A DNA stretch of 64,000 nt from Oceanococcus sp. HetDA_MAG_MS8. GTDB lineage: Bacteria; Pseudomonadota; Gammaproteobacteria; Nevskiales; Oceanococcaceae. The stretch is from positions 124,001 through 188,000 of the forward strand of contig JAHCMK010000001.1 of NCBI GenBank assembly GCA_019192445.1, read 5' to 3'. Positions 46,599 to 63,404 of this stretch are shown piece by piece. The position numbers and the translations under genes were made by a program. Below the pieces are notes generated by a model. The model ran no database searches, was not told the DNA's origin, and saw only the letters and a program-made list of their open reading frames with translations. Each line of letters starts with the position of its first letter. The stretch's first letter is position 1.

Positions 46599-47599
46599 GC
46601 GCGACGGAGTTGGTCTAAGAGTTGTTCTGCTGACAGTCGTGGCAGTTGCGGGTCGGTGGTGCGTGCTTCAACAAGCTCGCAAATTCTTTGGTTCACTGGG
46701 GCCTGCAATCCCATGGTGTGCGCCAGGCCCACGATCTCGCCGTTCAACTCTTGCACCTCGGTGATTTTGCCCTGGCTGAGGTCTGCCACCATGGAAGGGT
46801 AGCTCTGGTCAGTGAGGCCATTGCGGCGTTTCGCGGCTTGCCAGGCGACGGGCCCACCATGCAGTAGAACCCAGCGGTAGGCCCAGTATGGCAAGGGTAT
46901 GGGGAGTTGATAACGCAACTTGGATTGCCGCAATAGGGTCGTGGCTTCGTCCAGAGTGAGCACAAAGCTGGTCCGCAAAGCCGGTTCGGTCAGTAAGTCT
47001 TTGAAGGTGGTGTGCGTCAGCGCGCAGAGTGCGTTGGCCAAGTTGATCAACAACTTACCCCAGGCGACCGACGCGTCCGCTGCCTCTTTGAGCTCCCAGT
47101 CGGAGCTTTGCAGCATGGCGCTGACATCGGCGCTGCGCGTTTGTAGCAGTAATTCTGGAGCCGTGGTGATCTGCGCGTGGAGGCGGTCCAGTAGCTGGGC
47201 ATTAAACATCACGGTAAGGGCGCTCACCTGGCTATCCGGAAAACGCTGCGCCAAGGCGCGTGCTGCGCTCACCCCATTCAGGCAACACACGATGTGCTGG
47301 GGCGGCTGCTCCTGTGCGGCCAGCTCTTGCATCACCGATTCCAGATCACGGTGTTTGACGGCAACCAAAACCACTGCCTCTTTGGGCATCCGGTAATGCG
47401 TTTGATAAGCCGGCGTCGGTATGACCCAGTCCGCTTGGCCATGACTATGACTGATACGCAGACCTGGGAGTTTGGAATAAGCCTTCTCAGACTCCGGCCG
47501 AATGATCAAAGTGACCGGTCGGCCTGCACGTATCAGTCCTGCCGCAAGTACGCTCCCGACGGCACCTGCGCCGACTAAATATAGCGGCCCTTGGCTCAC
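46595..47599 (-). CDS. Ketopantoate reductase family (PanE/ApbA-like) protein
   Basis: A 334-residue NADP-binding reductase: N-terminal VGAGAVGSVLAAGL, then VAVKHRDLESV, CCLNGVSA and the C-terminal helical domain with KLLINLANALCALT (the K-x-x-x-N active-site block of PanE) and DLSQGKITEVQELNGEIV (the S-x-x-x-D type block in altered form). PanE proper makes pantoate for coenzyme A; this is a divergent family member. It overlaps the DUF3307 gene upstream and the TauE gene downstream by 4 bp each, so the three genes form an operon. Confidence 0.83.
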   Translation of the reverse strand: MSQGPLYLVGAGAVGSVLAAGLIRAGRPVTLIIRPESEKAYSKLPGLRISHSHGQADWVIPTPAYQTHYRMPKEAVVLVAVKHRDLESVMQELAAQEQPPQHIVCCLNGVSAARALAQRFPDSQVSALTVMFNAQLLDRLHAQITTAPELLLQTRSADVSAMLQSSDWELKEAADASVAWGKLLINLANALCALTHTTFKDLLTEPALRTSFVLTLDEATTLLRQSKLRYQLPIPLPYWAYRWVLLHGGPVAWQAAKRRNGLTDQSYPSMVADLSQGKITEVQELNGEIVGLAHTMGLQAPVNQRICELVEARTTDPQLPRLSAEQLLDQLRRA

Positions 47600-47955
47600 G
47601 CGATAATGCTAGTTGGGGCGGAGAACAAGAGGGCTAACCACAGTGCTTTGCAGGCTAAATGGAGGCATTGGTCCACATGGAAGCCATACCAGCCTTCACT
47701 TTTGCCGTAATCAATCGCGAAGTGCGCCAGCGTTTCTAAAGCGCCGAGGATGACACTTCCCGTGGCCAGGGCAACCGCACCGCCGTGGATGAGGCAGTGG
47801 CTCCCCAGCACGTGAATCCATATGAGGTCGGGGCGTTTGGAAGGGATGCGGTTGTCGGCGTTGTGCCGGCTTTTGAAGCGCGCCATCCAGTCCGACTGCA
47901 AGCCAAAATCGCCCATGGCGTGGCCAACAAGCAACCAGAACGCAACTTCGAGCAT
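47596..47955 (-). CDS. DUF3307 family membrane protein
   Basis: A 119-residue protein with three or four hydrophobic segments and the DUF3307 pattern: LLVGHAMGDFGLQSDWMARFK near the start (G-H-x-x-G-D), then LGSHCLIHGGAVALA and a final HLACKALWLALLF. Function unknown. ATG 47955 was chosen because upstream sequence lacks family similarity. It is first in a three-gene minus-strand operon with the PanE-like and TauE-like genes (4-bp ATGA overlaps) and diverges from the large cyclase gene 233 bp away. Confidence 0.78.
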   Translation of the reverse strand: MLEVAFWLLVGHAMGDFGLQSDWMARFKSRHNADNRIPSKRPDLIWIHVLGSHCLIHGGAVALATGSVILGALETLAHFAIDYGKSEGWYGFHVDQCLHLACKALWLALLFSAPTSIIA

Positions 47956-48188
47956 GACTCCCCACTGTTCAATGTAGGCAAGAAGAATGGCAGCAAAGCT
48001 GTTGGGGCTCAAGCCTGCCGGTCTGTTGATGCCGAGATGGCCAGTCCTTGGCAACACGCTCGCCGCGTCCTTAGCTGCGGAGCTGCGAATCCATCATTCC
48101 CGTGGCGGCCATCATTGTTTGTCAGGCTGAGGTAGTGTTGTGGCTATTCACCACAGCCGGAACCAGCGCGGCCGGGAGGAGCAAAGCC

Positions 48189-51100
48189 GTGAATGCCGAG
48201 CCGTCCAACATAGCACTCACACAGGTGTGTTTAAGTTGTCGTGGCCAGAACCCAGAGGTCGCTCGCTATTGCATGCATTGCGGTCAGAGCCTAGAGCTTT
48301 CACAGCCGGCCTCGCCGGAGGCTGCTGCCCGCGGTGCTGGGCTGCGCGGCGAGAACCGGGTTGTCACCGTTATGTTTGTGGATATCGTCGGGTCGACGGC
48401 CCTGGCGCGTGCTTTGGGGGCCGAAGCTTGGCATAGCTTGCTCGGTGAGTTCTTTGCACAAGCTGCAGCGGTGGTAGAGGGTGCTGGTGGCAGCATTAAT
48501 CAATACACCGGCGATGGTTTCATGGCCTTGTTTGGTGCACCTGCAGCCCTGGAGGATCACGCTCTGCAGGCAGCGCTAGCGGCGCTGCAGTTGAGGGAGC
48601 GTATGCGTGGTTTAGCGAGCAAGGTGCGCGATGGGTATTCCCAGAACTGGGCTCTGCGTACCGGGCTCAATTCCGGACCAGTGGTGGTGGGCGCTATTGC
48701 TGATGATTGGCGTCGTGATTACACCGCCCAGGGGGACACCGTACATTTGGCGGCGCGGATGGAGCAATTGGCCGCCCCGAACGGCATATTGCTGGCCGAG
48801 CGAACGGCCGCATTACTGCGTGGGCGCTTGCCACTCCGTGCCGGAGACGCCCTGCGGCCCAAAGGCATGGACGGAGTCATCCGTAGCTTCGAACTGCACG
48901 AGGATGCGGTGGAGCCTGCGTCGGCCTCCAGCGTGGACGCAGCTGCGCAGCAGGCTGCTCCCCTTATTGGTCGTCACGATGTCCTGGAACAAGTACGCAG
49001 ACAGCAGCAACGGTTACGGCAAAACTCCAAGCACGCGGCCATTCTTTGGCTAGATGGTGAAGCCGGCTTGGGCAAAAGCCGAATAGGCAAAGAGCTCTGG
49101 CGAGAATGGCAAGAATTGCCGCAGCGTCCATGGCTGCGATTACGCTGTGCTTCCGTCTCGCAAGCCGATGCTCGGCCCTTGGCACCAATCCGTCACATGT
49201 TGCTGAGTTGGCTGGGCGTTGATACTCGCTCGGCCACTGACTCCGCCCGGCAGGTCGTGGCCGCCACCATTGCTTTGGAGTATCCCCAACTCGCCGAGAT
49301 GCTGCCGCTGCTGCTGGATTTTTTGGGTTTAAGCGACGACCCCGCCGCAGATGATGGTCGCGAACAAAAGCTGGCGCAGCTGCCGCACCATCTTTGTCAG
49401 GCCCTGACTGGGCGTAAGCTACTGCTCTGGGTGGACGACTGGCATGCTTTAGACGCGGACAGTCGCCACTTCTTGCAGCATTGGTTGATGGAGCTAAAGG
49501 ACTGCGGCGGCGGTGTGGCTTTTGTGGGTAGTCGCCCTGGCCATCGTCCAGACTGGCTCGTTGGCGAGGGCTTCCACGTCCAAACCTTAGCTGCGCTCCC
49601 GGTTGCACATATGCGGAGCTTGTTGGCAGCGCTGGTTGCGCCCTGGGCGAACTACAGCGCCTATGGGCGAACTCTGCTGGCCAAAGCCGAGGGCAACCCC
49701 CTGTTCTTATGTGAAGCTGTCGCGCATGCCGTACAGCAAGGCCGGATGCGTGGGCCAATGGGCCGGCGCGTATGGTGCTCTGGGGTCCAGGATTGGGAGT
49801 TGCCTGACTCGGTACAAGCGCTGCTTGCCAGTCGTCTGGAGTCAGCAGGGCGCTGGGCAGCCGAGCTATTGAGCATGGCGGCATTGATCGGGCGAGACTT
49901 CAGCGAGGCCTGGCTGGCGATCGTCGCCGAGCACTCCGAGCAGGATCTACAGCAGCCATTGCGGGATCTCGCTGTAGCCGGCCTGCTGCAAGCCCGCCAG
50001 CCTGGATACTGGCGCTTCAGTCAGGCCTTGTTGCAAGAGGTTGCTGCGCAGCGGCTCTTACAAGGTCAGCGGAACCAGTATCTGCAGCGCTTGGCCGCCG
50101 CCTTACAGGAGCAACTCAAGCAAGGATCTCTGGATGAAGCCGTATGGGCCCAAGTTGCTGGGTTCTGGGCCGCAGCGCAGTGTTGGGAATCTGCGGTCGA
50201 GGCCAGTCTAGCTGCTGGCAATTACTGGATGCGCCAGCGGCTCAGCGAAGGCCTGCGCTGGTATCGGCAGGCCCTGCAGTGGACACATCAGCTCAGTGCG
50301 AGCAATCGCCAAGGTGAATTGGAACAAAGCGCCTTGTTTGCTTTACTCCAATCCACGTCCTTAGGAGGGGCTGAGACCACAAACATTCAACAGTGGATGC
50401 AGCGGGCTCAGCATCTGACCGAGGTGCAGAACATGCCATTGCGTGCGGCAGAGCTGCACATTATTCGCAGTACGCATCTGCTGAACGCGGGGGCGACACG
50501 CCAGGCTTATCGGCTCATTCGGCAGGCCGCAGAGGTGGCGCTGAGCCAGGCCGAGGGGGGGCAGGAGCTCATCGCCCGCTTTCGCGTGCCCATACTCTTC
50601 GCGCACTTTCTGCGTGGAGATATTCGTGGCGGGCTTAATTTGTTTGACCAGCAGGACGATGGCGCCTGGCGAGCCGGGGAGCCGCATGCAGACAATTACC
50701 TCTCCCGAGGCTTTTATGCCTTGTTGATGGCGGCGGCCGGCAAGCCCCGCGAGGCCATTTCCGAACTGGAGCGTGTGCATCAATTCGCGTCGGAACAGAT
50801 GACCCCGGTGAGTTGGATCGCCGGCAACCTCGTGGAGTTATACATCCAGTCGGGCCAGCATGATCGCCACCCCGATCTCGCCACGGAGGCGATGAATATT
50901 GCGCAGGACTTTGGTAGTCCCTTGTTCCTGGCGGTGGCATTGCGTGCGCAATCACTTTCTTTGCTGGCGTTGAATCGGGCCCACGATGCCTGGGAATTGC
51001 TCGCCCAGCATGCCTCGTTATTGCGGCAGTCGGGGCCGGCGCAGGTCTATGCTGCAGCGATGTTTGATGCGCGTGCCCAGGTGGCTTTTGCGGTAGGGGC

Positions 51101-51368
51101 TGAAGATGAGGCGCAGGAGTCCCTGCAGCAGGCCTGGGCTTCGGCGCGGCGACGTGGCGAGCTGTATTGGCAGGCCAAGGTGATGATGACTCGGCTGCGC
51201 TTGGCCACTCAGCTAGACCCCAAGTTGCACCGGCGCGCTTTGCGATTAATCCGTAGAACAGGAGCAATACAGCTTGATCCTGAACAATCCAAGCCTGCAG
51301 CCATAGAGCAGTTGCCATTGAATTCTGAACCATCAGCTTCGCGCTCCCAGTCCCTGGCCTCGACTTGA
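48189..51368 (+). CDS. Zinc-ribbon / class III cyclase-domain / AAA ATPase / TPR signalling protein
   Basis: A 1,059-residue cytosolic protein. Order: zinc ribbon (Cys14, 17, 28, 31; CLSCRGQ, CMHCG); class III nucleotidyl cyclase homology domain (about 57-235); AAA-type ATPase (about 258-560, Walker A GEAGLGKS, Walker B LLLWVDD); helical TPR-like region (about 640-1030). The cyclase metal Asp pair is kept (D65 in VMFVDIVGS, D109 in YTGDGF), but the substrate Lys position is Gln105 and the transition-state Asn is His186 (GDTVHLAARM), while Arg190 stays, so activity is uncertain. GGGAGGAG precedes GTG 48189. TGTGG-N7-CCACA at 48139-48155 may be an operator. First gene of a nine-gene run in which the third gene encodes a cyclic-nucleotide-binding domain. 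Confidence 0.92.
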   Translation: MNAEPSNIALTQVCLSCRGQNPEVARYCMHCGQSLELSQPASPEAAARGAGLRGENRVVTVMFVDIVGSTALARALGAEAWHSLLGEFFAQAAAVVEGAGGSINQYTGDGFMALFGAPAALEDHALQAALAALQLRERMRGLASKVRDGYSQNWALRTGLNSGPVVVGAIADDWRRDYTAQGDTVHLAARMEQLAAPNGILLAERTAALLRGRLPLRAGDALRPKGMDGVIRSFELHEDAVEPASASSVDAAAQQAAPLIGRHDVLEQVRRQQQRLRQNSKHAAILWLDGEAGLGKSRIGKELWREWQELPQRPWLRLRCASVSQADARPLAPIRHMLLSWLGVDTRSATDSARQVVAATIALEYPQLAEMLPLLLDFLGLSDDPAADDGREQKLAQLPHHLCQALTGRKLLLWVDDWHALDADSRHFLQHWLMELKDCGGGVAFVGSRPGHRPDWLVGEGFHVQTLAALPVAHMRSLLAALVAPWANYSAYGRTLLAKAEGNPLFLCEAVAHAVQQGRMRGPMGRRVWCSGVQDWELPDSVQALLASRLESAGRWAAELLSMAALIGRDFSEAWLAIVAEHSEQDLQQPLRDLAVAGLLQARQPGYWRFSQALLQEVAAQRLLQGQRNQYLQRLAAALQEQLKQGSLDEAVWAQVAGFWAAAQCWESAVEASLAAGNYWMRQRLSEGLRWYRQALQWTHQLSASNRQGELEQSALFALLQSTSLGGAETTNIQQWMQRAQHLTEVQNMPLRAAELHIIRSTHLLNAGATRQAYRLIRQAAEVALSQAEGGQELIARFRVPILFAHFLRGDIRGGLNLFDQQDDGAWRAGEPHADNYLSRGFYALLMAAAGKPREAISELERVHQFASEQMTPVSWIAGNLVELYIQSGQHDRHPDLATEAMNIAQDFGSPLFLAVALRAQSLSLLALNRAHDAWELLAQHASLLRQSGPAQVYAAAMFDARAQVAFAVGAEDEAQESLQQAWASARRRGELYWQAKVMMTRLRLATQLDPKLHRRALRLIRRTGAIQLDPEQSKPAAIEQLPLNSEPSASRSQSLAST

Positions 51369-51411
51369 GTACACTGAACGCTGTAATGACCGCTCGGGTG
51401 TAGGGGGAAAC

Positions 51412-52188
51412 ATGAGGCGAGGAGTCCGCTGGCTTTGGGTCGCAGTGGGTATGTTGGTTGTAGGGTTTGCCCCTGCGCGTAGCTTGCAAGAACTGCAAGA
51501 CTGCATGCGTGCGAACCTGCCGTCACAGTCATTGGTTCAGGAGGTGCGCCTGGTGGCGCATGACCGCTCTGGTGCGCGTGAACTACAGGCTCATGTGTAT
51601 GGCATGAAGTTGGATCAGGAAGTCGCAGTGATGCTGCGGATCCTCGCCCCTTCAGATATGTCTGGCTCGCGCTACTTGGTCATTTCGGGCCCGGAGCGTG
51701 ACGCTATGTATCTGTATCTGCCAGCGCTTAATCGTACGCGGCGTATTGGCGGGAGCATGGCGGGGCAGTCTTTATGGGGCACCGACTTCAGCTACGAAGA
51801 TGTCAAGCTGTTGCGGGGCTTGCTCACGCACGGCAGTGCCCAGCTGGAGGCTGAGGTGGAGTGGCAGCAGCGTCCGGCGCAGCGTGTGCGTATCCGCCCC
51901 AGCTCCGAGGAGAGTAGTCAGTACCAACAGGTGGATCTCACCGTGGACGATGCCACCTGCGTCATCGTACATGGCGATTTCGCCGACGCGGCCGGCCCAG
52001 TCAAAGAGTTGCGTGTGGCGCAGGCTGACGATCTACAGGAGGTCGGTGGCCAATGGTGGGCGCGCCGGGTGGAGCTGCATAGTTTGCGCGAGCAAACGCA
52101 TTCCGAGCTCTATATTCAGGATTACCGTATGGACCCGGATTTGCGCTCCGGGTTGTTTGACCCGCGCAGCTTCCAACGCGGGCGTTAA
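51412..52188 (+). CDS. LolA-like outer-membrane lipoprotein-sorting family protein
   Basis: A 258-residue exported protein (signal peptide ending near APARS, residue 24) of the 'outer membrane lipoprotein-sorting protein' family, a LolA-like half-barrel that carries hydrophobic groups through the periplasm: MLRILAPSDMSGSRYLVISGPERDAMYLYLPALNRTRRI, GQSLWGTDFSYEDV and DYRMDPDLRSGLFDPRSF are family blocks. Members of this family typically sit beside an RND/MMPL permease, as here (3 bp before the next gene). It would accept a hydrophobic cargo from or deliver it to the permease. AGGGGGA lies before ATG 51412, 43 bp after the cyclase gene. Confidence 0.87.
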   Translation: MRRGVRWLWVAVGMLVVGFAPARSLQELQDCMRANLPSQSLVQEVRLVAHDRSGARELQAHVYGMKLDQEVAVMLRILAPSDMSGSRYLVISGPERDAMYLYLPALNRTRRIGGSMAGQSLWGTDFSYEDVKLLRGLLTHGSAQLEAEVEWQQRPAQRVRIRPSSEESSQYQQVDLTVDDATCVIVHGDFADAAGPVKELRVAQADDLQEVGGQWWARRVELHSLREQTHSELYIQDYRMDPDLRSGLFDPRSFQRGR

Positions 52189-52190
52189 TC

Positions 52191-54926
52191 ATGGCCCAAC
52201 GCTCTTTGGGTCATGTTGTGGTGCGCTATCAGCGCTGGCTGCTGAGCAGCGTGGCGTTGCTGACTGTGCTCGCTCTGGCCAGCTTATTGACCTTTGAAGG
52301 GCAGCAGTTGGGCACGCGCCTGCGCATTGATCCAGCCGTGGATCGTTTGCTCGATCCCAACGACCCTGAGCGGGATTTTCAGCGGCAGATGGAGGCCTTA
52401 TTCGCCGAGCGCGATCCGGTCATTCTGGCGGTGGGCGAGTTCCCGGTCTTGACCAGCCAAGGGCTGGCCACGGTGGAAGCCATTCATGAGCGTCTGCAGG
52501 GCTTAAGCCAGATTCGCGAAGTGCGTTCCTTAGCCAATGCACCTTTGGCCCGCGATGATGCGGACGGAAGCTTGCTGTTAGATCCAGTGACCCGTCATCC
52601 CGCTGGGTCTAAAGCGCAGCAAGAGGCCCTGCGGGCGGCGATTCAAGCGAACCCGCTGCTCGGCGAGCAGCTCTTATCCGACGATGCCCAAACCGCAGCA
52701 TTTGTCTTGGAGTTTGCGCAACCTCCGGAGGACGCATTTGCTGCTGAGGACCTAATAGGACTGTTAAAGGCGACGGTGCGAGAGAGCGCGCCGGAGCTGG
52801 ATGTTTGGATCACCGGCGCAGCGCCGATTAAGGTGGCAGTGACCCAAGCCGTAGCCGCGCAGTTTGTGTGGTTGATTCCCTTGGTGTTGGGACTCACTGG
52901 GCTGATCACCATGCTGGCCTTTCGCAGTGTGCGAGGCGCTTTGCTGACCTTGGCGATGGTGGGCACAGCGCTGGTGTGGGTGCTGGCCTTGATGGTCTGG
53001 ATGGATACCCCTTTAACACTCGTCAGCGCCATCATGCCGCCGGTGGTGATCACCCTGGGCTTGGCCTATGCCATGCACGCGCAGTCCGATTTTTTGGTCC
53101 GCCGCATGCGCCATCCCGATGTGGATATGGACCAAGCCACGGCGGCGTCCATTGATCATCTCCGTCTACCCTTGCTGCTGACGGCGGTGACGACTATGGC
53201 CGGTCTACTGGCCCTGCTGCTCAACCCCTTGTTGGCAGTGCGGGAATTTGCCTTGTTCTCGGCTTTAGGCGTTGCCATCGATGCGGTCTTGGCCTTGTGC
53301 GTGCTGCCGTTGTTGCTGGCCAAGGTCAACTGTCGTCCGGTGCGTTTGGCGCACCAAGACCGGTTTGATCGGGTCGCGAATACCTTTGCGGCCTTTGCAC
53401 TCAAGCATCGTCGACTCATTGTCTTTCTGGGCGTGGGGATATTGCTGGCCGGTTTGCTGAGTTTGTCTCGGCTGGAGGTGGGCACGAACTATGTGCGCAG
53501 CTTCTCTGCCGGCCATCCGGTGCGTACGGACTTCGAGACCATCAATAGCAAATTGGCCGGGGTCAACGTTTTTTCCATTGTCTTGGAAGGCTTTGTAGCC
53601 GACACCTTTGTAGAGCCAGACATTCTTCGTTCCGTTCAGGTTCTACAGGCGTGGTTGGAGCAGCAGCCTGAAGTGGGCACTAGCTTGTCCGTGGTTGATC
53701 ATCTGCAGGTGATTCGACGCAGCCTGGGGGACAGCGTTGACGAAGCGGCGCAGATCCCAGATTCGGCAGCCGTGGTTAAACAGCTCTTACTCTTTGGGGG
53801 CGGAGCGGAGCTGCACCAGGTCGTCGATCGGCGCTTGGCGACGGCACGCATCGTGGTGCGTAGTTATGAAGATAACTCCGCAGCTATTGCCAGTTTATTG
53901 GAACGTTTGCAGCCGCAGCTGGACAAACTTCCGCGCCGCCTAGAGTGGCGTTTGGCCGGCGACTCAGTGCTTTTGACTAAGACCGTTGGGGAGATTGTCT
54001 CCGGTCAATGGTTGACTGTCGGCGTGGCAGCTCTTGTGATCTTCGCCGTGCTTGCCGCGTTATTTACCTCCTGGCGGGTAGCGGCGATGGCGATGCTGCC
54101 GAATTTAATGCCAGTGGCGGTGTACTACGGATTGTTGGCGGCGTTGAATATTCCACTCAACCCCACAACCAGCCTCATCGCCTGCATTGTGCTGGGCGTC
54201 GCCGTGGATGACACCATCCACTTTTTGGTGCGGTTTAACGCGGCCTCCAGGCAGTTGGCCGATGAAGCGCAGGCTGTAGCTGTGGCCCTGCGCGGAGTGC
54301 TGCGGCCGGTGACCTTTACAACCGTGGCGCTGTGCGCCGGCTTTGCTTGTTTGGCGTTGTCGCCTTTGCAAAATCAAGTGCAGTTTGGTTTGTTGGCCGC
54401 TGCAACCCTGGCTTTTGCCTGGGTGAGTGATGTGTTGTTTACCCCGGCCTTGGGTTCTGGGGTGCGCTTGGTGACCCTCTGGGATGTACTTCGATTGGAT
54501 CTGGGCGCCGATCCGCAGCATTCCATTCCCTTGTTCGCCGGCTTGAGCGGCCGTCAGGCTAGAACTTTCGCCCTGATGTCGCGTCTGATTGAAGTGCCGG
54601 CGGGTGAGCGTGTGATTGCCGAAGGCGATGTGGCTGAAGATATCTATGTCATCATCGATGGGCAATTGCGGGCTTACCTGGAGCGCGACGAGGGTGAGCG
54701 TGAATTGTCCATCATGAGTCGTGGAACGGTTATGGGCGAAGTGGGCTATTTTGGCCAACGCCGCACTGCCAGCGTGCGTAGCCTGACTCCGGCTAGGCTG
54801 TTGTTGTTCAACGGCACAGATTTGGATATTTTGCGCGCCCGATATCCGCGCATAGCAGCCACGGTGTATCGGAATTTGAATCTGACGCAGGCTCAGCGTT
54901 TGGCCAACATGGCCAAGATGATCTGA
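52191..54926 (+). CDS. RND/MMPL-family permease with C-terminal cyclic-nucleotide-binding domain
   Basis: A 911-residue inner-membrane protein. Residues 1-765 are an MMPL/hopanoid-exporter type RND permease: TM1 (about 17-34), a periplasmic loop, five helices (LIPLVLGLTGLITMLAFRS to LALCVLPLLLAK), then a second repeat (LIVFLGVGILLAGL, periplasmic loop, GVAVDDTIHFL). Residues about 781-895 are a CNB domain: FAGLSGRQ, VPAGERVIAEGD, YVIIDGQLRAYL, with the phosphate-binding cassette GEVGYF-GQRRTAS (Glu850, Arg858) intact. A cytosolic CNB on an RND pump is unusual; in this operon it lies downstream of a cyclase-domain protein, suggesting nucleotide-gated transport. The ATG follows the LolA-like stop by 2 bp. 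Confidence 0.93.
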   Translation: MAQRSLGHVVVRYQRWLLSSVALLTVLALASLLTFEGQQLGTRLRIDPAVDRLLDPNDPERDFQRQMEALFAERDPVILAVGEFPVLTSQGLATVEAIHERLQGLSQIREVRSLANAPLARDDADGSLLLDPVTRHPAGSKAQQEALRAAIQANPLLGEQLLSDDAQTAAFVLEFAQPPEDAFAAEDLIGLLKATVRESAPELDVWITGAAPIKVAVTQAVAAQFVWLIPLVLGLTGLITMLAFRSVRGALLTLAMVGTALVWVLALMVWMDTPLTLVSAIMPPVVITLGLAYAMHAQSDFLVRRMRHPDVDMDQATAASIDHLRLPLLLTAVTTMAGLLALLLNPLLAVREFALFSALGVAIDAVLALCVLPLLLAKVNCRPVRLAHQDRFDRVANTFAAFALKHRRLIVFLGVGILLAGLLSLSRLEVGTNYVRSFSAGHPVRTDFETINSKLAGVNVFSIVLEGFVADTFVEPDILRSVQVLQAWLEQQPEVGTSLSVVDHLQVIRRSLGDSVDEAAQIPDSAAVVKQLLLFGGGAELHQVVDRRLATARIVVRSYEDNSAAIASLLERLQPQLDKLPRRLEWRLAGDSVLLTKTVGEIVSGQWLTVGVAALVIFAVLAALFTSWRVAAMAMLPNLMPVAVYYGLLAALNIPLNPTTSLIACIVLGVAVDDTIHFLVRFNAASRQLADEAQAVAVALRGVLRPVTFTTVALCAGFACLALSPLQNQVQFGLLAAATLAFAWVSDVLFTPALGSGVRLVTLWDVLRLDLGADPQHSIPLFAGLSGRQARTFALMSRLIEVPAGERVIAEGDVAEDIYVIIDGQLRAYLERDEGERELSIMSRGTVMGEVGYFGQRRTASVRSLTPARLLLFNGTDLDILRARYPRIAATVYRNLNLTQAQRLANMAKMI

Positions 54927-54967
54927 GCGCTGCTGTCACCAGCACAGGCACCAAGAGGAGATGCCGA

Positions 54968-55723
54968 GTGAGAATAAGGGGATGGGCCTTAGGGCTTTGC
55001 TTAAGTGGAAGCCTGGCTTCGCTGGCCTGGGCGCAGTCGGTACAGGAGGTCGAGTCGGCCCTGCAGGCCCAGTCGCGGCAAGCGGCTTTGTCACAAGACG
55101 AGATCGACCAACTGGACGATGCCACCCGGCAAGCCTTGCTGAAGTATCGGGCGGCTTTACTGCGTGCCGAGCAGCTGCGGCTTTACCAAAAACAGTTGCA
55201 GGCGCAAGCGCAAACACAACAGCAACGGTTGGCGGAACTGGAGCAGGCGCTGGAAAGAGTGGAGGCCACCAAAGCCGACATGGTTCCGGTTTTGGTGCGG
55301 ATGGCAGAGGCACTGGAGGAGTTTGTTGCCGCCGATCAGCCCTTTCAACGTGATCAGCGCGAGGCTCGAGTCGCCGGCGTGCGTGACTTATTAGCCGACC
55401 CTGATGCGGCCCTGGCCGAACAGTACCGCGGCGTTTACGCAGCGTGGCAGGCCGAAGCCGACTTGGGGCGCCAGCTAGGCGCCGAACGCGTCAATCTTCC
55501 CGGGGCAGCAGCGGGACAATTGGTGGATTTGGTTGCCGTGGGTCGCCTGGCCTTATATGCCCTGTCATTAGATGGGTCTATGGCTTGGCAATGGCAAGCC
55601 CAGCGCAAGCGCTTCACCCCGCTGCCGCAAGCGGCGGTACCCTCCCTGCAGAAGGCACTACGAGTGGCCCAGGAGCAAGCCGCCCCGAGTCTGCTAACGC
55701 TTCCCGAGGGGCTCACACTATGA
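54968..55723 (+). CDS. DUF3450 coiled-coil periplasmic protein (TonB2 cluster)
   Basis: A 251-residue exported protein: signal peptide ending at AWAQS (residue 23), a long coiled coil (about 70-115, KYRAALLRAEQLRLYQKQL and so on) and the DUF3450 signature QPFQRDQREARVAGVRDLL with a C-terminal ALYALSLDG-SMAWQW. DUF3450 genes lead TonB2-type clusters in Vibrio and Shewanella, just before ttpC. The start is GTG 54968 behind AGAGGAG; an ATG start is not in frame. The end overlaps the next start (ATGA). Its role is unknown; binding to TtpC is a reasonable guess. Confidence 0.88.
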   Translation: MRIRGWALGLCLSGSLASLAWAQSVQEVESALQAQSRQAALSQDEIDQLDDATRQALLKYRAALLRAEQLRLYQKQLQAQAQTQQQRLAELEQALERVEATKADMVPVLVRMAEALEEFVAADQPFQRDQREARVAGVRDLLADPDAALAEQYRGVYAAWQAEADLGRQLGAERVNLPGAAAGQLVDLVAVGRLALYALSLDGSMAWQWQAQRKRFTPLPQAAVPSLQKALRVAQEQAAPSLLTLPEGLTL

Positions 55724-57096
55724 GCCGCGTTCACCAGTTTGGCCGTGGGATGACGCTGTTCGTCATGCTCGGCGGCATTGCCCTTTCTAGCCTGACCCCA
55801 GCGGCGGCCTCTGAGCTTCAGAGCCTGCTGGACAGCGTCCGTGCAGATGCCCGTCAGCAGTCCGCCCAGCAAAGCGAGCGTGAGCGCGCCTTTGTCCGTC
55901 GCAAACAGGAGCAGCAGGCCTTATTGGCCCAAGCTCAGCGACAGGTACGCCAGGCCGAGTCGGAGGTCGAAGCCTTGCGCCAAAAAATTGCGGCGCAGGG
56001 ACGCAAGATCGAGGCTCAGCAAAAGTCGTTGGAGGAACGCAGCGGTGACCTGCAAAGCGTTGCAGCAGTGTTACGCGATGGGGCCACCACAGCCTTGGAG
56101 CAGTTCAACAATTCCCTGGTGACCTTGGATGACCCGCAGCGGTTGGCGCGGATGACGGCGCTCACGCAGGTAGCCGATGTTCCCAGTAGTGAGGAGTTGC
56201 AAACTCTGTGGTTGGAACTGCAGGCCGAGGCTACGGCCCTAGCCAAGACTCAGGAGCTGAATCTGCAGGCCGGAGATGTTCAGGGTGATCTGCAGCCCAT
56301 GCGCGTCACTCGCTATGGGGGATTTGCATTGCGCAGTCAGGATGGTCAGTACCTGCGTTGGCGTGGTGGCCGCAGTGCGCCGGAGTTGATTGCTCGGCAG
56401 CCTAAGCCTGGTTTGGCGGAGCGGGTCGCTGGGGCATCCGTTGAGGGCTTGATTATTGACCCTACGGGCGGCTTGCTGCTGGGTTTGCAGCAGTCCAAAC
56501 CTAGCCTGCGCGAGAGAATTGCCCAAGGTGGTGTGATTGGCTTCGTGATCTTGGGGCTCGGTGCCCTCGGTCTGCTGCTGGGCTTGGTTCAGTGGCTGTA
56601 CTTGCTCGTTGTCGGGGCTAAGGTTAACCGTCAGCTCAAGCAGCCCGGCCAAGCGCAGGCCAACAATCCTTTGGGCCGAGTCTTAGCCTTAAGGCAGAGC
56701 GGGGCGGGGCGGGACTTTTCCTCGCTAGAGCTGGCGGCCGATGAGGCTGTGATGCGCGAAGTTCCGCGGCTAGAACGGCTGCAGGATACGGTGCGTTTGT
56801 TGGCCGCTGTTGCGCCCTTGCTGGGCCTGCTGGGCACGGTGACGGGCATGATCGAAACCTTCCAGGCCATTACCCTGTTTGGAACCGGTGATCCAAAATT
56901 GATGGCCGGTGGAATCTCGCAGGCCTTGATGACAACCGTGTTGGGTCTAGTGGTGGCCGTACCCTTACTGTTCTTACATAGCTTGGTGGTGGCTCGCAGC
57001 CGCAGCATTGTTCAGGTGCTGGATCAGCAAAGTGCCGGCTTATTGGCCGAGCTTCGTGAAGACCAGGCCCAAGTATTGACACCGGAGGTGGCATGA
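55720..57096 (+). CDS. TtpC-like MotA/TolQ/ExbB proton-channel protein with coiled-coil N-terminus
   Basis: A 458-residue inner-membrane protein with an N-terminal signal segment (MTLFVMLGGIALSSLT), a coiled coil (about 45-115, rich in Gln and Arg), and a MotA/TolQ/ExbB domain at about 270-445 with VAPLLGLLGTVTGMIETF and GISQALMTTVLGLVVAVP, the helices that line the proton path. The long periplasmic N-terminal extension distinguishes TtpC-type proteins, which are required by the TonB2 system in Vibrio. ATG 55720 overlaps the DUF3450 stop. The ExbB gene follows with a 4-bp overlap. Confidence 0.9.
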   Translation: MSRVHQFGRGMTLFVMLGGIALSSLTPAAASELQSLLDSVRADARQQSAQQSERERAFVRRKQEQQALLAQAQRQVRQAESEVEALRQKIAAQGRKIEAQQKSLEERSGDLQSVAAVLRDGATTALEQFNNSLVTLDDPQRLARMTALTQVADVPSSEELQTLWLELQAEATALAKTQELNLQAGDVQGDLQPMRVTRYGGFALRSQDGQYLRWRGGRSAPELIARQPKPGLAERVAGASVEGLIIDPTGGLLLGLQQSKPSLRERIAQGGVIGFVILGLGALGLLLGLVQWLYLLVVGAKVNRQLKQPGQAQANNPLGRVLALRQSGAGRDFSSLELAADEAVMREVPRLERLQDTVRLLAAVAPLLGLLGTVTGMIETFQAITLFGTGDPKLMAGGISQALMTTVLGLVVAVPLLFLHSLVVARSRSIVQVLDQQSAGLLAELREDQAQVLTPEVA

Positions 57097-57605
57097 ACCC
57101 TTTGGTGTCTGTGGCGACCTTAGTGGACCGCGGCGGGCCCTTGCTGCCAGCCTTGTTCCTCACTGCAACAGTGCTCTTCGTGTTGGTCTTCGAGCGTTAC
57201 TGGGAACTGTGGTTGGCATGGCCGAGGCTACGCCGACGCTGGGTGCAGGCCTGGCAGCAGCGTGGCGAGCGCGGTACGCAAGCGGCTCACCGGGTGCGCG
57301 AGGCGCTTATCTCAAAGGCCGCATTGCGTTTGGAGTCCAGCCTGCCTGTGCTCACTGCATTGGTCGCCATTTGCCCGCTCTTGGGTTTGTTGGGGACGGT
57401 CACCGGCATGATGTCCGTTTTTGATGTGATGGCGGTTGCCGGCACTGCCGAGCCGCGGGCTATGGCGGCAGGCATTTCTCGTGCAACTCTGCCCACCATG
57501 GCGGGCATGGTGATTGCCCTGCCGGGATTGTTTTTTCTGACCCGGCTGCGAAGCAGTGTCCGCCGTGCGGTGCATGCCTTCGCCGACTCTTTGGACTTCG
57601 ACTGA
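57093..57605 (+). CDS. exbB: ExbB-type proton channel subunit
   Basis: A 170-residue member of the MotA/TolQ/ExbB family: N-terminal TM (LLPALFLTATVLFVLVF), then LVAICPLLGLLGTVTGMMSVFDVM and GISRATLPTMAGMVIALPGLFFL. It is shorter than the TtpC-like neighbour and lacks the coiled coil, matching ExbB2. With ExbD it uses proton flow to energise TonB. ATGA overlap with the gene before; its TGA and the ExbD ATG share a base. Confidence 0.93.
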   Translation: MNPLVSVATLVDRGGPLLPALFLTATVLFVLVFERYWELWLAWPRLRRRWVQAWQQRGERGTQAAHRVREALISKAALRLESSLPVLTALVAICPLLGLLGTVTGMMSVFDVMAVAGTAEPRAMAAGISRATLPTMAGMVIALPGLFFLTRLRSSVRRAVHAFADSLDFD

Positions 57606-58009
57606 TGGCATCTCGACGTCATGATCGCCGTGAAGCCGAGCAGGGGGTGGACCTCACGCCTATGCTCGATATCGTCTTCATCTTGCTCATCTTCTTCATC
57701 GTGACGACCAGCTTTGTCCGCGAGGCCGGCGTGGAGGTGAATCGGCCCCAAGCGGCAAGTGCGCAAAAGCAGGCTGCGACGAGTATTTATGTTGCGGTGA
57801 CGCCCGAGGGCGAGATTTGGGTAGACCGGCGTCAGGTGCGCTTGGCGGGGCTGCGTGCTGCGGTGGCGCGTATTCGGTTGGAGAACCCGGAAGCCACTGG
57901 CGTCATCCAGGCGGATGCCGATGCTCGGCACGGGCTGGTGGTGGCAGTGATGGATGAGCTGCGCTTAGCCGGTGTGCGTGAGATCGCTGTGGCGGCTGAC
58001 GGGCCCTGA
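57605..58009 (+). CDS. exbD: ExbD-type TonB energiser
   Basis: A 134-residue single-TM protein of the ExbD/TolR family: a basic cytosolic N-terminus (ASRRHDRREAEQG), VDLTPMLDIVFILLIFFIVTTSF with the proton-carrying Asp in PMLDIVF, and a periplasmic domain ending VMDELRLAGVREIAVAA. The first base of its ATG is the last base of the exbB stop. Together with the two ExbB-like proteins it forms the motor of the TonB2-type system. Confidence 0.94.
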   Translation: MASRRHDRREAEQGVDLTPMLDIVFILLIFFIVTTSFVREAGVEVNRPQAASAQKQAATSIYVAVTPEGEIWVDRRQVRLAGLRAAVARIRLENPEATGVIQADADARHGLVVAVMDELRLAGVREIAVAADGP

Positions 58010-58010
58010 T

Positions 58011-58679
58011 ATGCGTTGGTTGACGCTGCCTGTACTCGCCGTCCTGGCTGTGTTTGGCCTGTTTTGGCTGATGCACTGGTTGGTGCTGCCGCCAGAGGGG
58101 GCTGCCACGCAGGACGCCGATCAAGCTTTGATCACCGTGGCACCGCCGCCGCCGGATACTCCGGAGCAGGATGCGGCCAGCAGTGAGCCTGTGGAAGCGC
58201 CCCCAGCGCCGCCGCAAATGCCAGCGATAGCGATGACCATGGATGTGGCCATGCCCGTCGATATGCCCACATCGGATGTGAGCGAGCTGAGATTGGCGGA
58301 ACCCACGGTAGAGGTGGGTGGCAGTGCGGTGGGTTTGGAGGGGTTTGGCGGCTTTGCCCCTGGCCGAGCCGGGCGCGGCAGCGGGCGCGGGCAGCGCATC
58401 AATGGCGACACGCTCGTGCCCTTATCGACAGCGCGACCGCAAATTCCCAGGGAGGCCTTTGAGGCGGGGATTGAGGGTTGGGTGGAGGTGGTGTTCTACG
58501 TCACGGCGCAAGGGCGAGTCACCAATATTCGTATTGTGGACGCCGAGCCCAAGGGCGTATTTGAAGCCGCCATGGTTGCCTCGGTGAAACATTGGATTTA
58601 CCCACAGTCGGCTGGTGCCCGTGAGGTTCAACAACGCTTTGAGTTCAAGCTTGAAGACTATCAATACAACTGGAATTGA
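58011..58679 (+). CDS. tonB: TonB-family energy-transducing protein
   Basis: A 222-residue protein with an N-terminal TM (LTLPVLAVLAVFGLFWLMHWLV), a short Pro-rich linker (APPPPDTPEQ, PPAPPQMP; much shorter than in E. coli TonB), a Gly/Arg-rich segment (GRAGRGSGRGQ) and a C-terminal TonB domain (about 140-222; PQIPREAFEAGIEGWVEVVF, IVDAEPKGVFEAAMVASVKHW). No TonB-dependent receptor gene is in the window. ATG 58011 lies one base after the exbD stop. The stop overlaps a TTG that could start the next gene. Confidence 0.92.
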   Translation: MRWLTLPVLAVLAVFGLFWLMHWLVLPPEGAATQDADQALITVAPPPPDTPEQDAASSEPVEAPPAPPQMPAIAMTMDVAMPVDMPTSDVSELRLAEPTVEVGGSAVGLEGFGGFAPGRAGRGSGRGQRINGDTLVPLSTARPQIPREAFEAGIEGWVEVVFYVTAQGRVTNIRIVDAEPKGVFEAAMVASVKHWIYPQSAGAREVQQRFEFKLEDYQYNWN

Positions 58680-58726
58680 GTGGGTGCAGCGCACCCCTGT
58701 CAGGCATGCCAAGGGATTTGGCTGTC

Positions 58727-61249
58727 ATGACTAGCCATGGGTATACGCAGATTTTGGGGCCTGCCTTGCTGCTGTTGGTGGCGTTGTTTCCCCCGGTTGT
58801 GTGCGGGCAGCAGTATCGCAGTGAGGCCAAGGGCATCTCGCAAAGCGAAATCGACAAGGCCGAGCGGGGCTATGACGCCGAGGCGGCGTTGCAAACCACC
58901 ACCGATCCCTATGCGCGCAGCATGCTACTGGCGCAAATTGCTGCGGAGGCGGCGGCGCAGGGAGACCCAGAGCAGGCTTATGCCCGCATACAGCAGGCCT
59001 TGGAGTTGGATGCTTTGTCCGGCTTTGCTCAGCAGCAGCTGCGTCAGCAAGCAGGCTTGCTGGCGGCGCGCTTGGGCAAAGACTTGGAGGTCATTCGTCT
59101 ATTAAAAGGAGCCAACGATCCGGTGGCTATACGCCAACTGGTAGCGGCTTATGCGCGCAAAAAACGCTGGCGTGAGGCGGCGTCTGCGGTGAGTCAGTTA
59201 CTCGACCAGGCCAAACCCAGCACTGATGATCGTTTGTTAGACGCACAGGTCGCTGCGGGTCTGGGGGATTGGTCTCGGGTTTTGCAGCGCACAGAAGAAG
59301 TGCTCAACGCGCAGCCGCAACTGGCGGCGGCCTGGATGCTGCGTATTCGGGCCCAGCTTCAGCGGGGCCAAATCCAAGCAGCCTTGGCCAGCCGCCGTGC
59401 GGCTTGGCGTCTGCGAGTATTAGTGGGGCCGGAGCAGCGCTTAGGACTGGTTGGCGATTTTGCCAAGGCCGGTGTGCCGCTGGCTGCGGCAAGCTTGTTG
59501 GAGGAGGGCTTGGCTCAAGAGGAGATTGAATCCAACCCCGAACGTCTGGATCAACTGGCAGCACTGTGGCTGCAAGCGCGTGAATATGCGGCGGCTAGGC
59601 CTGTTCTGGAGGAAAGATTGCGCCTGGCGCCTTCCGCTGAGGCATCTTTGCAGTTGGGTCAGATTGCACTCAATGCCGGTGATTGGTCCTTGGCAGCACG
59701 GCACCTGCGCGCCACGCAGCGACTGCCGGATCCGCAGCGCCGCGCGGCCGCAGCCATGTTGTTGGGGCAGGCGGAGTTTCAGTTAGGGCGCACCCAGGCG
59801 GCAGTTCGAGCATTTCAAAACGCCACAGCCCACGCCCGTTATCGTTCCAGCGCCCAGCAATGGCTGGATTATTTACGCAGTGGTGACGCATCCGCCAGCG
59901 CCGTTGCGGGGCAGTCTATTCGGCAAGCAGACGCCGTGCGTCAACGGGGTCAGCGGCTCAGCGGGCTGGGCGCTAATCGCCGTCAGCAGCCACAGGTTCA
60001 GGGCTTTACCCCAGTGGGCGCTCAGGCTCCCGGAAATGCCGAAGGTCAAATTCCAGCATGGACCGGCGGCCTACCGAGCACGCAGGAGGTCGGTGACAAC
60101 CCTTTCGCCGACGAGCAGCCCTTAGCCGTGGTTCAGGCCGACAATATGGATGATTGGCTGCCGTGGTTATCGGATGGCCACCGGGTCTTGCTGCAGCGCT
60201 ACCCTGAGTTTCGAATGCCGGTGTATCCCAGCCGGCGCAGCGTGGCTTATCCAGATCCCATCTATTCCGCGACACAAAAGAATCGTGGGCGGGCCCGCCT
60301 GCTAGGCTCTGATGCGATCAGCGGGGCGCGTTTAGGTTTTCCGTTTCCGGCGCCGGAGTCCGGGGTGGAGGCGATGTGGAATCACCGCCTGCGCTGGCGC
60401 GGTGAAGCCATGCGCCGAGAATCGAATCAAGCCGTGGTGGGCGGCAATGGCGAGATCCGCAACGTGCTTGTTCAGGGCGAAGAGATTTTGGCCCGTTACG
60501 CCAGCATTGCAGACCCGGCTGATCTCAGCCAGGAAAACATCTTGCTGTATTACCTCACCACGTTTGGCAGCAGTTTGCGGGTGCCAGATTTCACGGTCGT
60601 GGTCCATGAGTCGGCGAACTCTTTGGAACGGGATCGCGCCATTTGGGCCCTACCACGCAGCTATAAAAAGATGTTTCGCATTCCCCCTGTGGGTTATGAC
60701 AATCCTTTCCCGGGGGCAGAAGGGCTGTTCTACATCGATATGGTCGATATGTATAACGGCGCCTTTGATCACTACGATTGGAAGCTCGCAGGCAAGCGCG
60801 AGATGCTCATTGGCTATAACGCCTTCAAGGCTCAGCAATATGGGCCGCGGGCCGGAGCCGATGGCCTATTGCATGCCACGGCTCTGAACTCGGAGGCGTT
60901 GCGCTATGAAATTCACCGGGTGTGGGTAGTGGAGGCGACCGAGCGCGGCGGAAAGAGCCACGCTTTTGGCGTGCGTCGTTTTTACCTGGATGAAGATTCC
61001 TGGAACGTGGTGTTGGTGGAAAACTTCGACCGGGCCGGGCAAATGTGGCGGGTTCAAGAGGGTCATCTGCTGCCCAATCCCGTGATCCAGTCCGCCGATT
61101 GTGCTCCGGTTGTCACCTACGACGTGCAAGACGACAAATACTTTGTCCAGCGTATGACAGCGGATTTCGGTCCAGCGCAAGTGCTGGATCCTCCGCCTAG
61201 CGTGCGCGAGTTCCGCCCCAGCAATGTCAAAAACCGCTATGCCCGTTGA
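58727..61249 (+). CDS. TPR protein fused to DUF1329
   Basis: An 840-residue exported protein. Signal peptide MTSHGYTQILGPALLLLVALF...VVCG; a long TPR-type helical array (about 45-400, repeats such as GDPEQAYARIQQALELD, LAAAWMLRIRAQL, PSAEASLQLGQIALNAGDWSLAARHL); then a DUF1329 domain (about 440-835; QIPAWTGGLP, PVYPSRRSVAYPD, SRLGFPFPAP-type region, WALPRSYKKMFRIPPVGYDNPFPG, MYNGAFDHYDWKLAGKREMLIGYNAF). TPR proteins end TonB2 clusters; DUF1329 proteins usually partner RND permeases and DUF1302 in lipid-type gene sets. Here they are one protein, in the operon that also has an RND permease. The start may instead be ATG 58706 or TTG 58676. Confidence 0.9.
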   Translation: MTSHGYTQILGPALLLLVALFPPVVCGQQYRSEAKGISQSEIDKAERGYDAEAALQTTTDPYARSMLLAQIAAEAAAQGDPEQAYARIQQALELDALSGFAQQQLRQQAGLLAARLGKDLEVIRLLKGANDPVAIRQLVAAYARKKRWREAASAVSQLLDQAKPSTDDRLLDAQVAAGLGDWSRVLQRTEEVLNAQPQLAAAWMLRIRAQLQRGQIQAALASRRAAWRLRVLVGPEQRLGLVGDFAKAGVPLAAASLLEEGLAQEEIESNPERLDQLAALWLQAREYAAARPVLEERLRLAPSAEASLQLGQIALNAGDWSLAARHLRATQRLPDPQRRAAAAMLLGQAEFQLGRTQAAVRAFQNATAHARYRSSAQQWLDYLRSGDASASAVAGQSIRQADAVRQRGQRLSGLGANRRQQPQVQGFTPVGAQAPGNAEGQIPAWTGGLPSTQEVGDNPFADEQPLAVVQADNMDDWLPWLSDGHRVLLQRYPEFRMPVYPSRRSVAYPDPIYSATQKNRGRARLLGSDAISGARLGFPFPAPESGVEAMWNHRLRWRGEAMRRESNQAVVGGNGEIRNVLVQGEEILARYASIADPADLSQENILLYYLTTFGSSLRVPDFTVVVHESANSLERDRAIWALPRSYKKMFRIPPVGYDNPFPGAEGLFYIDMVDMYNGAFDHYDWKLAGKREMLIGYNAFKAQQYGPRAGADGLLHATALNSEALRYEIHRVWVVEATERGGKSHAFGVRRFYLDEDSWNVVLVENFDRAGQMWRVQEGHLLPNPVIQSADCAPVVTYDVQDDKYFVQRMTADFGPAQVLDPPPSVREFRPSNVKNRYAR

Positions 61250-61386: not shown

Positions 61387-62736
61387 ATGAGTGATAAACC
61401 CCGCGAGCTAGCGCGGCTAAGAACGCGCCCGCTGGAACGCAATTGGGCCATGACCCGCATGGGGTTGGGAACAGGGTTCCGAGCCGCTGGCCATGTGATG
61501 GCGAATTTGTTTCGCGATGAGGATGCCCGCGAGGCCTCAGACCGCGACTTCTACGCCGAAGAGGCGCGGCGCTTGGTCCAAGAGATGGGGCAACTCAAGG
61601 GCTCCATCATGAAGGCTGGACAAATGCTGTCCTTGTATGGCCAGTACTTCATGCCGCCTGAAGCCGTCGATATCTTGGCCAGCTTGCAGGATGACACCGA
61701 TCATGTGGGCTGGGATGTGGTGGGTCCGGTGCTGGATCAATCCCTGGGGCCGGAACGTCTGGCGGAGCTGGACGTAGAACGCGTGCCCATCGCGGCGGCA
61801 TCTTTGGGCCAAGCCCATCGCGCCACCGTGCATGACACTGGCGACACGCTTTGCATCAAAGTGCGGTATCCCGGAGTGGATGCTGCGATTGACTCTGATA
61901 TTCGCACCATTGCTCGCTTGCTGGGTTTTTCGCGGTTGGTGCCCAAAGGCCTATCCCTAGAGCCGGTGTTGACAGAAGTGCGGGAGATGCTGCACCGGGA
62001 AGTCGATTATTTGCATGAGCGAGAGGTGCTGGAGAGTTATCGGGAACGCTTAGCGGACGATGTCCGCTTTGTAGTGCCTCGAACCTACAGCCGCTATAGC
62101 AGTAGTGAAGTGCTGAGCATGAGCTTCGAACACGGCATCTCGCTGAAGGCGAGCGCGGTGGCGGAACTCGGCGCTGCGCGCCGTGAGCGCCTAGCGCAGG
62201 CCTTGCTGTGGTTGTTCTTGCAAGAGTTTTTTGTATGGAGACAGGTGCAAACCGACCCGCATTACGGCAACTACCGCTTGCGCCTGGATGATCAAGGTGC
62301 CGACCAATGGGTGCTATTGGATTTTGGCGCAACGCGCAGCTTTTCTCCGGGCTTTGTGCGCGACTATGCTCGCATCGTACGGGGCGCTTTGGAGGATGAT
62401 CGTGAGGAGGTTCTGCGCGGCGCTGTGGGCATTGGACTGATGCGGAGTTATTTCCCTGAGCCGGTGTTGCAGGCCTTCTTTGAGCTGACGCGGCTCATCG
62501 TTGAGCCTTTTTGTCAGGGAGAGTACGACTGGGGGCGCTCGGACCTACCCCAGCGCGTAAGTCAGGCGGTGGCGCGGAATGCCTTGACCCGCCATTTCAA
62601 GATTCCGCCCCGCGAAATCGTGTTCTTGCATCGGCGTCTGGCGGGAGTGTTCATTACCCTGAATCGCCTCCAGGTGCGCTTAGATGGTCGGCGCATGCTG
62701 GAGGATGCCCTGTCTGTCGCGGAAACCATCGAGTAA
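61387..62736 (+). CDS. ABC1/UbiB-family atypical kinase
   Basis: A 449-residue protein of the ABC1/ADCK/UbiB family: KxGQ motif GSIMKAGQMLSLYG, Ala-rich loop AAASLGQAHRA in place of a Gly-rich P-loop, VAIK-type Lys in CIKVRYPGV, the QTDPHYGNYR block and metal-binding LLDFGATRSF. UbiB-type proteins support ubiquinone assembly or extraction of lipids from membranes. It lacks the C-terminal TM segments of UbiB proper and is a single gene rather than part of ubiE-ubiJ-ubiB, so it is a paralogue of this family. It starts 138 bp after the DUF1329 gene. Confidence 0.9.
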   Translation: MSDKPRELARLRTRPLERNWAMTRMGLGTGFRAAGHVMANLFRDEDAREASDRDFYAEEARRLVQEMGQLKGSIMKAGQMLSLYGQYFMPPEAVDILASLQDDTDHVGWDVVGPVLDQSLGPERLAELDVERVPIAAASLGQAHRATVHDTGDTLCIKVRYPGVDAAIDSDIRTIARLLGFSRLVPKGLSLEPVLTEVREMLHREVDYLHEREVLESYRERLADDVRFVVPRTYSRYSSSEVLSMSFEHGISLKASAVAELGAARRERLAQALLWLFLQEFFVWRQVQTDPHYGNYRLRLDDQGADQWVLLDFGATRSFSPGFVRDYARIVRGALEDDREEVLRGAVGIGLMRSYFPEPVLQAFFELTRLIVEPFCQGEYDWGRSDLPQRVSQAVARNALTRHFKIPPREIVFLHRRLAGVFITLNRLQVRLDGRRMLEDALSVAETIE

Positions 62737-62909: not shown

Positions 62910-63404
62910 ATGGCTCATCGTTTTGATGACGTACAAACATTCGAGCAAGACGCCGATACCATTTTTGGTATGTTTTGCGACCCGGAATACTTTGCAAAAA
63001 AGTACGCCCAAACCGCTGTTGAACACGAGATTCTCGAGGCTAGCTCGAATGACCAGAGCTTTAGCATTAAAGCGAAGATGAAAATGCGTTCGGACGCTCC
63101 GGTGCCTGGGTTTGCCAAGAAGTTTGTGAGTGACACCATGACCGTGGAGCAAACAGATACCTGGGATAAAACCACCCGCACAGGACATCTAGAAATTCAT
63201 ATTCATGGCGCCCCGATTACGGTCAAGGCAGCCATGGAGCTCGTCGATACCGACCGGGGCGCCGAAAACCGCATGCACTGGGAAGTGGTGTGCAAAGTCC
63301 CTTTGGTGGGCTCTAAGCTCGAGAAGATGCTGGAAGATGACATTCGCCACAAGGCACCGCGTGACTTGGAAGTTAGTCGTGCGCTCGCCAAGGACTACGC
63401 CTAA
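62910..63404 (+). CDS. DUF2505 family protein
   Basis: A 164-residue protein of the DUF2505 family, which belongs to the START/SRPBCC-like helix-grip fold: FDDVQTFEQDADTIFGMFCDPEYFAKKYAQTA, KMKMRSDAPVPGFAKKFVSDTMTVEQTDTWD and the C-terminal GSKLEKMLEDDIRHKAPRDLE. A hydrophobic cavity for a lipid or other apolar ligand is likely from the fold; no ligand is known. It has no signal peptide. The DUF2970 gene follows after 3 bp, so these are cotranscribed. Confidence 0.85.
   Translation: MAHRFDDVQTFEQDADTIFGMFCDPEYFAKKYAQTAVEHEILEASSNDQSFSIKAKMKMRSDAPVPGFAKKFVSDTMTVEQTDTWDKTTRTGHLEIHIHGAPITVKAAMELVDTDRGAENRMHWEVVCKVPLVGSKLEKMLEDDIRHKAPRDLEVSRALAKDYA

Follow-up and report, generated by a model that had tools for sequence, protein, structure and literature searches.

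A nine-gene array in which a cyclase-LolA-RND-CNB module adjoins a TonB2-type motor with a TtpD-DUF1329 fusion

Described systems closest to the array

TonB classically energises inward transport. In the TonB2 system of Vibrio, the motor is encoded by six genes, and both TtpB2, a DUF3450 protein, and TtpD2, a TPR protein, are needed for iron transport (PMC6957404). A second group of described systems concerns hydrophobic compounds. AmeABCD of Castellaniella defragrans, a DUF1302/DUF1329/RND set, is involved in monoterpene tolerance and has been proposed to act in efflux (PMC6394551), and the Pseudomonas putida genes PP_0765/0766 are needed, with PP_2018/2019, for growth on Tween 20 (PMC10866462). 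Both sets comprise a DUF1302 barrel, a DUF1329 protein, a periplasmic protein and an RND pump. In the literature we found, how the outer-membrane steps of such DUF1302/DUF1329/RND transport are energised is not described.

Two envelope modules in one array

We analysed a stretch of 64,000 nucleotides, referred to here as the window. An earlier note on this DNA had proposed a run of nine plus-strand genes between positions 48189 and 61249. All nine open reading frames are present at these positions, and Pfam agrees with the domain calls across the array. The genes and their neighbours are as follows.

47596..48057, minus strand: DUF3307 gene, lying divergently next to the cyclase (PF11750, 2.8e-9)
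48189..51368, plus strand: cyclase with Zn-ribbon, class III nucleotidyl cyclase domain, AAA ATPase and TPR-like C-terminus (Guanylate_cyc 1.3e-20, AAA_16 8.5e-8)
51412..52188, plus strand: LolA-like periplasmic protein (LolA_like PF17131, 9.2e-34)
52191..54926, plus strand: RND/MmpL (possibly HAE3-like) permease with a C-terminal, predicted cytosolic cyclic-nucleotide-binding (CNB) domain (MMPL 3e-25, cNMP_binding 2e-15)
54968..55723, plus strand: TtpB-like DUF3450 protein (PF11932, 3.3e-58), the gene that opens the TonB2 order (PMC6957404)
55720..57096, plus strand: TtpC-like protein, DUF3450-like periplasmic part and MotA/TolQ/ExbB channel domain (PF01618 5.2e-27, weak DUF3450 3e-6)
57093..57605, plus strand: ExbB (MotA_ExbB PF01618, 3.3e-24)
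57605..58009, plus strand: ExbD (PF02472, 2.1e-29)
58011..58679, plus strand: TonB (TonB_C PF03544 2.8e-10; TIGR01352 above cut-off)
58676..61249, plus strand: TtpD-DUF1329 fusion, TPR superhelix followed by a LolA-fold DUF1329 domain, likely exported (PF07044 1.1e-96, preceded by TPRs)
61387..62736, plus strand: ABC1/UbiB-like kinase, a conserved neighbour with no clear place in the operon (PF03109, 4.5e-47)
62910..63404, plus strand: DUF2505 protein, conserved neighbour (PF10698, 1.2e-29)

The gaps between successive genes of the array measure 43, 2, 41, -4, -4, -1, +1 and -4 bases, the last value assuming the TTG start at 58676; it becomes +47 if the ATG at 58727 is used instead. No terminator-like site was found in any junction of the array and no promoter was found, in a scan that overall stayed at chance level. 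The short gaps and terminator-free junctions are consistent with a single transcription unit.

The array is built of two conserved envelope modules. Module A consists of the first three genes, coding for a class III cyclase-AAA-TPR protein, a LolA-like protein and a permease of the RND/MmpL type that ends in a CNB domain. Module B consists of the last six, in the order TtpB (DUF3450)-TtpC-ExbB-ExbD-TonB-TtpD, with TtpD fused to DUF1329. Since the gene order of module B is kept in most genomes of the order and module A recurs at many separate loci, the array is more than a chance assembly.

The likeness to TonB2 that the earlier note had seen was borne out, as the six genes of module B and their order are identical to those of Vibrio, including a DUF3450 TtpB, a TtpC with a channel domain and a TPR TtpD (PMC6957404). 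In our TtpC, the MotA_ExbB domain covers residues 372-478, and the weak DUF3450 match at 63-246 lies below the curated cut-off. However, unlike in Vibrio, TtpD has an extra LolA-fold DUF1329 domain, there is no TonB receptor nearby, and cyclase, LolA and RND-CNB genes precede the motor.

On the 3' side, the ABC1/UbiB-like kinase gene follows TtpD-DUF1329 in most relatives and the DUF2505 gene lies downstream in many; the two together (window 61387-63404), often with a further DUF1329 gene, trail the fusion gene in many relatives. These surroundings possibly constitute a lipid-related neighbourhood guild. On the 5' side, a DUF3307 gene also adjoins the cyclase at three other loci (L081, L083, L095).

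A TtpD homologue with an added LolA-fold domain

The most telling feature is the last gene, which, judged from alignments and the structure model, encodes a TtpD homologue with an added LolA-fold DUF1329 domain. It had previously been read as a TPR-DUF1329 protein; the domains were right, but the homology to TtpD with an added LolA-fold domain had not been singled out. The TPR part stands at the TtpD position and aligns with TPR-only proteins of 402-446 aa from the corresponding position of other TtpBC operons, found in Methylomonas (L009), in Endozoicomonas (L010) and at another two loci of the same genome (L097, L098). A scan with the last protein alone found only two relatives, both of the plain-TtpD type and usable as outgroups, and a PDB sequence search with it returned nothing above noise.

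In the AlphaFold model (pLDDT 85.5), a linker of low confidence (394-425 of the model) connects a TPR superhelix with the LolA-fold domain; with a pTM of 0.54, the placement of the two halves relative to each other is not confident. The DUF1329 half, modelled with a pLDDT above 85 over most of its length, matched Porphyromonas gingivalis LolA3 (9tp6; Z 18.9, rmsd 3.1, 238 aligned residues), the DUF1329 crystal structure 4z48 (Z 16.9) and 3bk5 (Z 16.3), while the TPR half matched the TPR of OGT (Z 22). The LolA fold is thus common to LolA3, 4z48 and the last gene product, but here it is covalently joined to a TPR superhelix within a TonB operon.

The same fusion of TtpD to DUF1329 is present in another 34 orthologues that we aligned. 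A TtpC tree of unknown root contains one branch (support 95/90) that splits the TtpC of DUF1329-type operons from those of plain-TtpD-type operons, which is compatible with a single origin of the fused type. Q29 and Y30, located just past the likely signal peptide (QYRSE, window 58811-58825), are invariant in 35/35 orthologues, and these residues at the likely mature N terminus may mark a docking motif.

All components of the array belong to known kinds. We found neither the fusion nor the triad of cyclase, LolA and RND-CNB described in the literature searched, a prior account in subscription papers being possible.

The modules co-occur but mostly lie apart

Searching 81 genomes (the genome itself and relatives of its genus, family and order), we found the full-length fused protein in most of them, at 34-66% identity; a group within family f6 (g7, g15) gave no match at the cut-off used. 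In an even sample of the class, the fusion was present in just 4/370 genomes, of which one belongs to a different order, and each of the four also has an RND-CNB of the close group. RND-CNB is more widespread, being found in 22/370 of these genomes, many of its members distant.

In the 36 genomes of the order, 30 hold both the fusion and RND-CNB, 1 holds the fusion only, none holds RND-CNB only and 5 hold neither (p 1.6e-5, counting as a holder G007, in which a contig end truncates the fused protein). The corresponding numbers in the class sample are 4, 0, 6 and 360 (p 2.7e-7); both p values are inflated by the shared ancestry of the genomes. The co-occurrence of the two halves that the earlier note had expected is therefore found.

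In 12/31 genomes, representing 8/18 genera, RND-CNB and fused TtpD lie within 20 kb of each other, compared with a chance of about 1% for a single genome. In the other 19/31, the modules are separated by more than 20 kb or lie on different contigs, with tens to hundreds of kb between them where a distance could be read. The nine genes are contiguous in the genome analysed, in G002 (same family) and in G021 (family f6); in G001, of the same genus, the last eight genes are contiguous and the cyclase genes end another contig. Hence the nine-gene operon represents one way in which the two co-occurring modules are arranged and not their general form. The earlier picture of one fixed envelope machine fails on this point, because most relatives carry the cyclase/LolA/RND and TonB halves at different loci. 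The halves are thus independent in location but not in occurrence, and, given their separation in most genomes, the case for a joint function is drawn from their co-occurrence among kin.

We also considered whether the nine-gene set has been transferred horizontally between the family of this genome and f6. Such a transfer is not supported, the G021 TtpC being nested in neither f1 nor f2 in a tree whose deep branches are weakly placed.

A possible route for lipids or other hydrophobes

The link of DUF1329 and RND to hydrophobic cargo, on which the earlier note had drawn, agrees with the two described sets (PMC6394551, PMC10866462). Like AmeABCD and the P. putida sets, the array combines DUF1329 with an RND permease, here possibly of the HAE3 type, implying hydrophobic cargo. 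It differs in that its DUF1329 is fused to a TPR protein of a TonB system, its RND permease carries a CNB domain and is accompanied by a LolA-like protein, and DUF1302 is missing from the operon, none having been found by Pfam among the nine proteins and their neighbours.

DUF1302 proteins are nevertheless encoded elsewhere. The genome holds nine DUF1329 and seven DUF1302 proteins, some in AmeABCD-like DUF1302/DUF1329/RND sets (L099, L100). Genomes checked encode 5-33 DUF1302 proteins if they have the fusion and 0-1 if they do not; the exception that breaks this pattern is G003, 93% complete, which has neither the fusion nor RND-CNB. In genera g3 and g11, one DUF1302 subfamily (L023, L026, L033, L090) is encoded at TtpD-DUF1329 or RND-CNB loci. 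Its members in the genome analysed are at L100 and L103, and we regard this subfamily as the best lead to an outer-membrane partner. A more distant DUF1302 is found at the G040 locus (L053), where three adjacent u15-group proteins (L053:12041-14493) lie between DUF1302 and the TonB module; these have strand-like 'P-V' repeats, and the one tested had no Pfam match.

The AlphaFold model of the permease (pLDDT 90.6, pTM 0.84) has MmpL5, MmpL3, HpnN and NPC1 as its nearest structures in Foldseek. They resemble the permease core (residues about 5-760) in fold, at a sequence identity of about 15%, and leave the CNB domain of about 125 residues uncovered. The HAE3 model TIGR00921 matched with an E value of 8e-44 and 149.8 bits, against a cut-off of 351.9. 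As for drug efflux of the HAE1 (AcrAB-TolC) type, no membrane fusion protein or outer-membrane factor was found among the nine proteins.

The reading that we prefer, with slightly less than even confidence, is that the TonB2-type motor is specialised, via TtpD-DUF1329, for the outer-membrane step of a lipid or hydrophobe route in which a cyclic nucleotide tunes the pump at the inner membrane. From the anatomy and the co-occurrence of the modules we infer that two envelope modules would have been brought into one transcription unit to form this regulated route. Proton flow through ExbB/ExbD/TtpC would move TonB, and the TPR part of TtpD would steer the force to DUF1329, which might pass a hydrophobic ligand to or from a DUF1302-type barrel encoded elsewhere. 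At the inner membrane, the RND/MmpL pump would exchange ligand with the LolA-like carrier, and binding of a cyclic nucleotide to its cytosolic CNB domain would set the pump, with the co-encoded cyclase as the putative source of that nucleotide.

The direction of the route cannot be set by sequence. An export or outer-membrane lipid-placement machine, comparable to HpnN for hopanoids or to MmpL lipid transport, with TonB energising delivery or release at the outer membrane, is possible, although we place it clearly below even. It shares most of the preferred mechanism in the other direction, so that our confidences in the two readings are not exclusive. The nearest RND structures are lipid exporters or transporters, LolA-fold carriers serve outward sorting (as the PF17131 family name implies), and AmeABCD is a proposed efflux system (PMC6394551). 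On the other hand, the related P. putida genes are needed for growth on a supplied substrate, Tween 20 (PMC10866462), and the classical role of TonB is inward.

Returning to the TonB-energised hydrophobe route as we prefer it, the array suggests, short of proof, that TonB may power the movement of greasy molecules across the cell envelope. The conserved fusion of DUF1329 to a required TonB2-type subunit is a concrete, testable hint of such energising, and the CNB-tailed RND with its adjoining cyclase offers a single operon in which to test whether a cyclic nucleotide controls a lipid-type transporter. If true, TonB-driven hydrophobe transport and a cyclic-nucleotide-controlled RND would broaden the supposed roles of both TonB and RND proteins. 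A more specific version, in which a TonB motor without plugged receptor would power passage across the periplasm and the outer membrane (probably through a DUF1302 barrel) via TtpD-DUF1329 as a lipid-chaperone fusion, and the cyclic nucleotide made by a co-transcribed cyclase would gate the RND pump directly, seems to us quite doubtful as a whole.

Other TonB systems of the genome

Two further TtpBC-TonB systems (L097, L098) are present in the genome, both with a plain TPR TtpD. The L098 system is flanked by two TonB-dependent receptors and by a protein rich in histidine and aspartate; L098 is perhaps a metal uptake locus. Among the matches listed, the genome has 18 TonB-receptor plug domains, none of them closer than about 170 kb to the focal set, though receptors can be encoded anywhere. 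In seven other genomes, again among the matches listed, only G002 has a plug domain close by (about 6 kb). A tblastn search of all loci with the two receptors, which is of low sensitivity, found none outside L098.

These data bear on a plainer explanation, that module B energises receptors encoded elsewhere (for iron, vitamins or others) in the ordinary TonB2 manner, with DUF1329 as no more than a periplasmic scaffold or outer-membrane anchor and cyclase-LolA-RND sharing the operon for regulatory convenience. We consider it unlikely. It would fit a gene order equal to that of TonB2, the presence of plug domains that could be served and the frequent lack of linkage between modules A and B; however, the genome already has its two plain-TtpD systems, one beside receptors, the matches listed show no receptor around the focal set or, G002 excepted, close to its counterparts in the seven other genomes, and DUF1329 is retained in the 34 orthologues, the fused type forming one side of a supported branch.

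The CNB domain and the cyclase

In the model of the permease, twelve membrane helices precede the CNB domain, which should therefore be cytosolic. The earlier note had read a CNB domain on the RND permease. The phosphate-binding cassette of this domain is intact, and its Glu and Arg (GE...RTA) are kept in nearly all orthologues, with exceptions such as L064, L070 and L075. PDB matches of the domain include PKG, PKA-R and CRP. VIA-align on the RND model gave mostly AcrB-type rows at tied Z and hardly probes the CNB domain, so the assignment is based on Pfam and the alignment.

Two parts of the cyclase, its Zn-ribbon (CxxC...CxxC, at about residues 14-30) and its TPR region, were read from the sequence, with no Pfam call. 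The two metal-binding Asp residues and the transition-state Arg (FVDI.., TGDG.., ..AAR) are conserved in the homologues examined. At what we take to be the canonical adenine-specifying Lys/Asp positions it has Gln/Thr, and the presumed transition-state Asn is His here and N, H or G in homologues. With a non-canonical purine-specifying pair and a variable transition-state residue, neither substrate nor product can be predicted.

A cyclase homologue lies directly 5' of LolA-RND-CNB in families f1, f2, f3, f5, f6 and f101. Several genomes that hold both modules have no close cyclase, which is thus not obligatory. That cyclase and CNB are not a cis signalling pair, the cyclase being a degenerate sensor or scaffold or serving a global regulator and the CNB domain a structural assembly element, would fit the Gln/Thr pair, the variable transition-state residue and the many genomes with RND-CNB lacking a nearby cyclase, but it is rather improbable in view of the conserved metal Asp and Arg residues of the cyclase, the conserved CNB Glu and Arg and a cyclase-LolA-RND-CNB order that recurs in six families.

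The LolA-RND-CNB pair was seen at many loci. A LolA-like gene lies 5' of RND-CNB in nearly every close-group relative whose upstream DNA was read; in L059 it is 5.5 kb away on the opposite strand, and none was detected beside the distant RND-CNB set. We found no literature joining CNB, RND and LolA, though an earlier account is possible in subscription papers. In several f2 genomes, an SDR gene and a GreB-like gene come after RND-CNB, and in the genome analysed such a pair adjoins the DUF1302 gene of L103 (G000:C7:10000-20000). Finally, cyclase genes occur in twos at L081:3514-9901, L095:784-5840 and G058 C10:35370-41659: G005 and G058 have two in tandem before LolA-RND-CNB, and G001 has two at a contig end.
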